Assembly (NCBI GenBank): GCA_018857735.1 | Contig: JABMCL010002100.1 | Coordinates: 62,501-126,500, forward strand | Origin: Alviniconcha marisindica | Lineage: Eukaryota; Mollusca; Gastropoda; Provannidae | DNA length: 64,000 bases | Reading direction: 5' to 3' | Shown: piece after piece, positions 5,123 through 22,686 of the stretch | Layout: every line of letters begins with the position of its first letter | How positions within the stretch are numbered: position 1 is the stretch's first letter | The notes under the pieces: generated by a model | What the model was told of the DNA's origin: nothing | Databases searched by the model: none | What the model saw: the letters and a program-made list of their open reading frames with translations, nothing else | Position numbers and translations under genes: made by a program

Positions 5123-5218
5123 CTATTCCCCGCTGAGTGAACTGACTGAATAACCTTGGCGAAGCTTCTCTTGGCACTCTTCAAATATTGCCTTGAACTC
5201 TTTGGCCACCTCCATTTT
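5123..5218 (-). CDS. last exon: C-terminal end of a Ran-binding (RanBD1) domain
   Basis: The acceptor TTTTCCAG lies just before 5218 on the minus strand. The exon encodes [19 protein letters not shown] and stops at TAG (5125-5123). The pattern E-V-A-x2-F-K-x2-F-E-E-C-Q is the last helix of RanBD1 domains in RanBP2/Nup358 and RanBP1. Only this helix is present; the preceding beta-sheet core is not found in the 285 bp up to the previous exon. The final codons and the stop lie in a copy of the dispersed TATAGCGCTATTC repeat. No clear poly(A) signal is seen downstream. Confidence 0.65.
   Translation of the reverse strand, partial: KMEVAKEFKAIFEECQEKLRQGYSVSSLSGE

Positions 5219-22686: not shown

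Follow-up and report, generated by a model that had tools for sequence, protein, structure and literature searches.

A partial RanBP2 duplicate beside an intact TRIM exon in Alviniconcha marisindica has the anatomy of a newborn fusion and is probably not a kept gene

We analyzed a 64,000-nucleotide stretch of the genome of the gastropod Alviniconcha marisindica (contig JABMCL010002100.1, here C2309, positions 62501-126500; hereafter the window), in which an intact TRIM exon is followed by sequence related to the nucleoporin RanBP2/Nup358. All features named below lie on the minus strand unless stated otherwise. In the explanation that we favor, a segmental duplication would have copied the 3′ half of a RanBP2 gene, beginning near the zinc-finger exon, and the duplicate and the intact TRIM exon would have ended up adjacent on the same strand, with the duplicate downstream. 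The locus would then have the anatomy of a newborn fusion while the rest of the duplicate decays, and it is probably an unestablished by-product rather than a kept gene. The original prediction, made from the sequence of the window, had joined the TRIM module to a RanBP2-like tail with phenylalanine-glycine (FG) exons and the ends of a Ran-binding domain (RBD). The adjacency on one strand and the compatible splice phase hold. A working RanBP2-like tail is unsupported, because the pieces are a partial duplicate of a full gene located elsewhere and because the RBD bodies, the FG motifs and the reading frame are lost.

The TRIM exon (21571..22686) encodes 372 amino acids (aa) in a single open frame, with a RING (aa 12-59), two B-boxes (about aa 98-135 and 154-184) and a predicted coiled-coil helix (aa 187-300). 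Pfam recognized the RING (PF13920, 3.7e-8, together with PF13445 and PF00097) and one B-box (PF00643, 4.5e-6) above the cut-off; the first B-box scored 24.2 bits, under its cut-off of 27 (PF22586, 3.6e-5). To define the relatives of this exon, 5.8 billion proteins were searched and the 7996 best-sharing candidates were scored, which gave at least 213 relatives at E<=0.001, the best 120 of which were listed. The RING and B-box ligands are kept across these best 120 of 213, and an alignment with 42 of the 120 has 37 invariant columns, the window exon included. The AlphaFold model made with the 42 relatives is usable overall, not accurate (mean predicted local distance difference test score, pLDDT, 73.7; predicted template modeling score, pTM, 0.33). 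It contains a long helix at residues 187-300, with pLDDT values of 76-89 in blocks covering 191-300, and its best Foldseek matches include TRIM21, KAP1 and TRIM72 at low TM-scores. At its 3′ end the exon has a near-consensus phase-0 donor (CAG/GTAAGG). The intact RING/B-box/B-box/coiled-coil exon with a phase-0 donor that had been proposed is thus confirmed by Pfam, by the ligands and by the donor sequence. Membership in the RING/B-box/coiled-coil (RBCC) class makes the encoded protein a predicted E3 ubiquitin ligase.

Downstream of this exon lies an exon that opens, in phase 0, with a RanBP2-type zinc finger (18955..19128; PF00641, 9.9e-10). Its acceptor at 19128 has a pyrimidine tract and reads ...cactgttccag, and here too the original prediction was correct. 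The best solved relative of the finger in the PDB is human RanBP2 (2.7e-34). An origin from Nup153 was considered and ruled out, since the finger has its best PDB matches in RanBP2/Nup358 and its DNA shares 95% identity with a RanBP2 gene on another contig, C2516. A search of the 818-Mb assembly gave 12 RanBP2-type fingers. The window has one; two others, on C2516, share its score, C2315 carries four, and the remaining five lie elsewhere. The four on C2315 (about 564.6-567.7 kb) look like Nup153, as that stretch matches Nup153 proteins above RanBP2.

C2516 carries a full RanBP2 gene at about 177.3-88.3 kb, where the Babylonia protein P0121 matches in order, with gaps, over residues 1-3838. No TRIM match was present in C2516:65,001-195,000, which includes this gene. 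The window from 1.3 to 19.15 kb is collinear with C2516 from 87.0 to 119.4 kb, parts of introns included, with a few stray repeat matches elsewhere; for this comparison opposite-strand rows, rows shorter than 35 bp and rows below 78% identity were dropped. Strong identity stops at 19147, and weaker similarity seems to continue into the upstream intron. In the RanBP2 proteins of the gastropods Babylonia, Nucella and Batillaria, similarity to the window starts at the zinc finger, and their N-terminal part gave no significant match at 22.7-64 kb of the window. The N-terminal TPR/solenoid, present on C2516, has no match in the window. The RanBP2 pieces in the window are therefore a partial collinear duplicate of the 3′ half of the gene, beginning at about the zinc-finger exon.

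These data also bear on the alternative that the TRIM exon sits within an intron of a genuine RanBP2 gene, which would account for the shared strand and for a zinc-finger exon downstream. The full gene lies on C2516, however, and a search of the window and of the contig flanks at 12,501-62,500 and 126,501-146,500 gave no N-terminal RanBP2 exon. Upstream of the TRIM exon, moreover, the opposite strand carries a SWIB-domain gene (35923-64000, plus strand; PF02201, 5.6e-20, at the window end), which is probably SMARCD/BAF60 from its sequence features. Nesting in a genuine RanBP2 gene is hardly credible on these grounds, and with the parent gene found on C2516 we ruled it out.

We then compared the zinc-finger exon with that of the parent gene. 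After the finger, the remainder of a 149-aa frame (18682..18954) contains four FG dipeptides (GGFG, FKFG, FKFG and VNFG) before a frameshift, and a stop codon at 18681-18679 closes the frame 149 codons past the splice. The FG part of the exon is a 63-bp FKFG-type minisatellite of 30.3 copies (17017..18936). It has expanded from a brief FG segment in the parent exon, where two FKFG units correspond to the roughly 30 copies in the window. Beyond the four FG dipeptides of the open frame the array shifts frame: nine frame changes occur among the 25 FG sites found, the first at 18748, and some of the frame-shifted units resemble one another. At its 3′ end (16780..16900) the expanded exon has a phase-0 donor, as in the parent gene. 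The FxFG-like repeats noted at this position thus exist as an FKFG-type array that, as the sequence stands, is not one open frame.

The remainder of the duplicate was audited with 18 chosen blocks of the parent gene, 15 of them from the first zinc finger (ZF1) on. Nine of the 18 went unmatched in the window: three RBD1 exons, located upstream of the duplicated part, and six of the 15 from ZF1 on, namely RBD2a, two middle exons of RBD3 and three exons of RBD4. Several further blocks are truncated. Only two are near whole, the ZF1 exon (269 of 294 bp, 95% identity) and the last RBD3 exon (5153..5236; 84 of 84 bp, 96%). The second finger of the parent has no site of its own in the window and matches the ZF1 site. 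In the second FG exon (13281..14173) a 57-bp array of 12.4 copies with frameshifts is followed by an FSFG stretch cut by (GT)n. The three FKFG motifs that open this exon in the parent are all lost (the window reads FKSG, FQPG and FQIH/FKLD). The further FG exons of the original prediction are accordingly represented by a copy starting at 14173, in which the opening motifs are gone and the FSFG stretch is frame-shifted. Another exon is partial (10405..10505; 88 of 151 bp of the tested block, 91%), with a 26-bp minisatellite in place of its 5′ part and its 3′ end tandemly repeated in a 67-bp array. In the exon leading into RBD3 (5515..5613) the first 99 of 162 bp are identical to the parent, and then a (GT)n tract cuts it. 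What remains of the GDRGNVYYTKQLD repeat region of RanBP2 follows at 4954..5084. Out of gene order, displaced fragments lie at 820..940 (ENRPG..CIGCED, and 27 bp of an RBD2 exon reading FKAVFDDS); among them, at about 0.9 kb, is a 59-bp match to the ENRPGCPGCIGCED exon, with an in-frame TAG in the ENRPG fragment.

With an RBD profile built from 15 mollusc and annelid domains, the only remnant detected in the window (about 5233-5168, E 0.007) covers model positions 111-132, the final ~22 of 132; the next matches have E values of 0.4 or worse. RBD border segments had been proposed, and fragments exist at about 5233-5168 and 5613-5515, but the window yielded no domain bodies. An RBD split over distant exons was ruled out, since only the last ~22 positions were found and the RBD2a, middle RBD3 and RBD4 exons are unmatched. 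With its RBDs lost and its exons decaying, the remainder of the RanBP2 copy is predicted to lie outside any working protein.

Several other elements were seen in and around the duplicate. A broken reverse transcriptase of the long interspersed nuclear element (LINE) type lies between two relic exons (8800-6930; PF00078, 1.2e-8). Minisatellites and microsatellites, mostly with units of 20-67 bp and including GT runs, are very dense at 1-21100 of the window, in the duplicated RanBP2 part, and arrays longer than 150 bp are far fewer at 25.5-61 kb. On the plus strand at 29319-32579, a 732-aa open reading frame precedes two more open frames, of 215 and 138 aa. Neither the 732-aa nor the 215-aa frame has a Pfam match, and this is perhaps an uncharacterized or mobile gene.

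Such repeats raise the question of the assembly. Reads of the RanBP2 locus could have been misjoined or collapsed across GT runs beside the TRIM contig and so have produced a false partial copy, as several breakpoints adjoin (GT)n or minisatellites and many of the indels in the array are homopolymer-length changes. On the other hand, substitutions relative to the parent are scattered over the zinc-finger and FG exons, the LINE fragment occupies a stretch for which the parent gave no listed match, and at 5515 and 10505 the cuts are within exons. We consider an assembly artefact very unlikely.

Some observations weigh against our view that the locus is an unestablished by-product with a decaying tail. 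Both the TRIM exon and the zinc finger are intact. The window finger differs from the parent ZF1 at five single bases of 174, affecting four codons synonymously and one nonsynonymously out of 58; it differs from the second parental finger by six synonymous and two nonsynonymous codons, and the two parental fingers differ from each other by eight and one. That four of the five changed codons are synonymous fits constraint. So does the protein comparison, in which the window finger is nearer to Babylonia (78% identity) and Batillaria (74%) than those two are to each other (66%). Both patterns also fit a recent copy, and a recent copy suffices to explain the similarity of the finger, because a 323-bp stretch is 98.1% identical to the parent. 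As regards the array, the start and the end of the zinc-finger exon share one frame, and many of the shifts between them are single-base homopolymer changes, of which some could be assembly errors. Sequencing error is therefore possible for part of the shifts. Finally, one later FSFG stretch of the second FG exon survives, though with its frame shifted.

We next considered whether the two intact parts could form one product. The junction is compatible (phase 0/0, GT/AG), and since the TRIM donor is in phase 0 and the finger exon is symmetric (0 to 0 in the parent), a splice between them is possible in frame. With this geometry a transcript could join the TRIM exon to the zinc finger. Its predicted product would be at most the 372 aa of TRIM plus 149 aa with the finger and four FG dipeptides. 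If made, TRIM dimers or higher assemblies would carry FG and finger tails and could ubiquitinate FG-binding clients or karyopherin-like capsids. Zinc fingers of the RanBP2/Nup153 kind bind Ran.

This product is the basis of the alternative that the locus is a working TRIM-zinc finger-FG gene of about 521 aa, in which the captured exon replaces the usual C-terminal exon and acts as a bait. Its proposed output would be ubiquitin transfer by the RING onto FG-binding cargo or capsids, and the downstream RanBP2 exons would be free to decay. The in-frame geometry with near-consensus sites is consistent with such a gene, as are the intact zinc ligands of the TRIM part and a finger with mostly synonymous change. 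A precedent comes from TRIM-NUP153C, in which the SPRY domain of TRIM5 was replaced by the FG part of NUP153; it restricted human immunodeficiency virus type 1 (HIV-1) 5-10 fold as well as equine infectious anemia virus (EIAV), the latter mainly via one FKFG motif (Matreyek et al. 2013, PMC3795039). The open frame, however, ends inside the array after three FG units. In addition, the zinc-finger motif occurs in none of the 120 listed TRIM relatives (best 120 of 213), and no gastropod protein among 75 zinc-finger matches contains a RING. Two further points in favor of a working gene, the apparent want of the usual last exon and similar architectures in other animals, are described below. Overall, we find a working gene doubtful.

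The TRIM exon is one of a large family in caenogastropods, whose named members from Littorina and Batillaria are 45-58% identical to it. Among the best 120 of 213 relatives, 99 are unnamed and 21 are named (Littorina, Batillaria). One Littorina relative, P0051, has a different C-terminus with a Cys-containing tail. At the position where the window exon ends, 43 of the 99 unnamed listed relatives read Q and then V, a possible GT donor, and 83 of the 99 extend no more than 25 residues past it. In 18 of the 21 named listed relatives an NHG/Neuralized-type segment follows the same boundary. The Q-V reading and the NHG segment suggest that this boundary is an old one within the family and that a different last exon usually follows it. 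From these comparisons the last exon seems to be exchangeable within the gastropod TRIM family.

We searched for the usual last exon with a family profile. In the first version two rows held part of a second TRIM; its sole weak match (E 0.005) was the TRIM exon itself, and a held-out close family member, used as a control, scored 3.5e-57. The profile was rebuilt without the two rows for the contig stretches. Neither the window, in six frames, nor contig positions 1-10,000 and 12,501-126,500 yielded a last exon, and the rebuilt profile reached E 0.6 at best. Pfam, likewise, detected no ordinary TRIM C-terminal domain in the given pieces or in two of the three minus-strand frames of 1-10,000. 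This agrees with what had been noted at the outset, that no ordinary TRIM C-terminal domain is seen, and a hidden canonical last exon is ruled out for the stretches covered by the profile.

A TRIM copy without its last exon may also have nothing to do with the RanBP2 sequence. In this case the TRIM copy would simply stand upstream of an unexpressed RanBP2 relic, without a chimeric transcript, and would either be dead because it has no last exon or be translated on into the intron, giving a protein of about 395 aa. The unspliced frame runs 23 codons past the donor before a stop (21499..21570), and this read-through closely resembles that of the relative P0001, which keeps 91% identity and nearly the same extension. 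The family of at least 213 relatives fits such a stand-alone copy, as do the short extensions of most unnamed listed members and the Q-V reading in many of them. Against it, the near-consensus donor and the NHG segment in the named relatives lead one to expect use of a downstream acceptor. We regard the absence of any link as quite possible, though less likely than not. It is a sub-case of the by-product explanation that we favor, so the confidence that we place in the two overlaps.

To look for similar proteins, we examined the 75 distinct proteins recovered in two zinc-finger searches with the window finger as the query. Only two of them have a RING/B-box module, an annelid and a fish protein. 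The combination of RING, B-box and RanBP2-type finger, for which a search of mollusc proteomes had been suggested, was seen in no gastropod protein among the 75. The annelid protein, a predicted 3083-aa product of Owenia fusiformis (P0130), begins with a full TRIM. FG sequence, a truncated RBD and a zinc finger come next, and then a GLEBS segment of the Nup98 type (PF21240, 1.3e-17) and more RanBP2 sequence. Against P0134, the ordinary RanBP2 of Owenia, identity is 72% over residues 495-715 and 93% over residues 1135-2239. The fish protein, a predicted 1575-aa product of Leuciscus chuanchicus (P0122), has a TRIM at its start, after which the zinc-finger region of Nup153 occurs twice in succession, ahead of the Nup153 FG tail; against the Nup153 of the sister species L. 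waleckii (P0132), residues 339-653 are 81.6% identical and residues 652-1575 are 96.6% identical. In both predictions a diverged open nucleoporin copy would lie next to the TRIM and a closer copy after it, an arrangement that one would expect of a kept fusion whose parent gene is still intact next to it. Both could also be annotation joins of neighboring genes.

The TRIM parts of the snail, annelid and fish sequences are mutually only 24-29% identical; if real, the three fusions would therefore be independent in origin. Taken together, they would suggest that TRIMs repeatedly capture zinc-finger and FG parts of nucleoporins (RanBP2 in the snail, RanBP2 with Nup98-type GLEBS/FG in Owenia, Nup153 in the fish), as natural counterparts of the TRIM-NUP153C bait. 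We consider this an unlikely reading at present. If true, such proteins would be self-assembling ubiquitin ligases whose FG baits catch capsids or karyopherin-like cargo en route to the pore.

The best-known TRIM fusion, TRIM5-cyclophilin (TRIMCyp) of primates, is a proven restriction factor and arose by retrotransposition. The snail locus, by contrast, is known from sequence alone, and its donor is a genomic duplicate with introns. In relation to the Littorina and Batillaria TRIMs, the window shares the RBCC exon and its boundary and has a RanBP2-derived exon where the NHG last exon belongs. In relation to RanBP2/Nup358 on C2516, it shares the finger exon, at 95% DNA identity, and the collinear 3′ half, and is without the TPR, the RBD bodies and most of the in-frame FG repeats. 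The Owenia and Leuciscus proteins likewise place an RBCC before a RanBP2- or Nup153-type zinc finger and FG region; they differ in being gene predictions only and in belonging to other TRIM types, 24-29% identical to that of the window.

Among engineered proteins, TRIM-NUP153C resembles the snail locus in joining a TRIM RBCC to an FG-rich nucleoporin tail with FKFG motifs, and differs in being laboratory-made and in having a tail of about 580 aa with 29 FG, against 149 aa with four FG in the snail (PMC3795039). In a second construct, TRIMNup358, a TRIM is joined to a part of RanBP2/Nup358, but that part is the cyclophilin domain, not the finger or FG region; this fusion also blocked HIV-1 (Schaller et al. 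2011, PMC3234246). The original prediction had known of no described TRIM-RanBP2 fusion. For natural fusions this stands as far as titles and the openings of abstracts go, where no natural TRIM-nucleoporin fusion was found; it does not hold for the two engineered fusions or for the two predicted database proteins. Laboratory-made TRIM-nucleoporin fusions are already known, and it is by analogy with them that we infer how the snail locus might act.

Even as a relic, the locus holds a clear 5′-truncated RanBP2 duplicate positioned to supply exons to a TRIM gene. With the annelid and fish database proteins, the question of natural TRIM-FG-nucleoporin fusions can already be put to the test. Should a transcript join the two exons, the snail locus would be a nascent TRIM fusion whose bait derives, through a genomic duplicate, from a nucleoporin gene that the same genome still contains. 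Such a case would show how restriction-factor fusions start and which captured part is kept.
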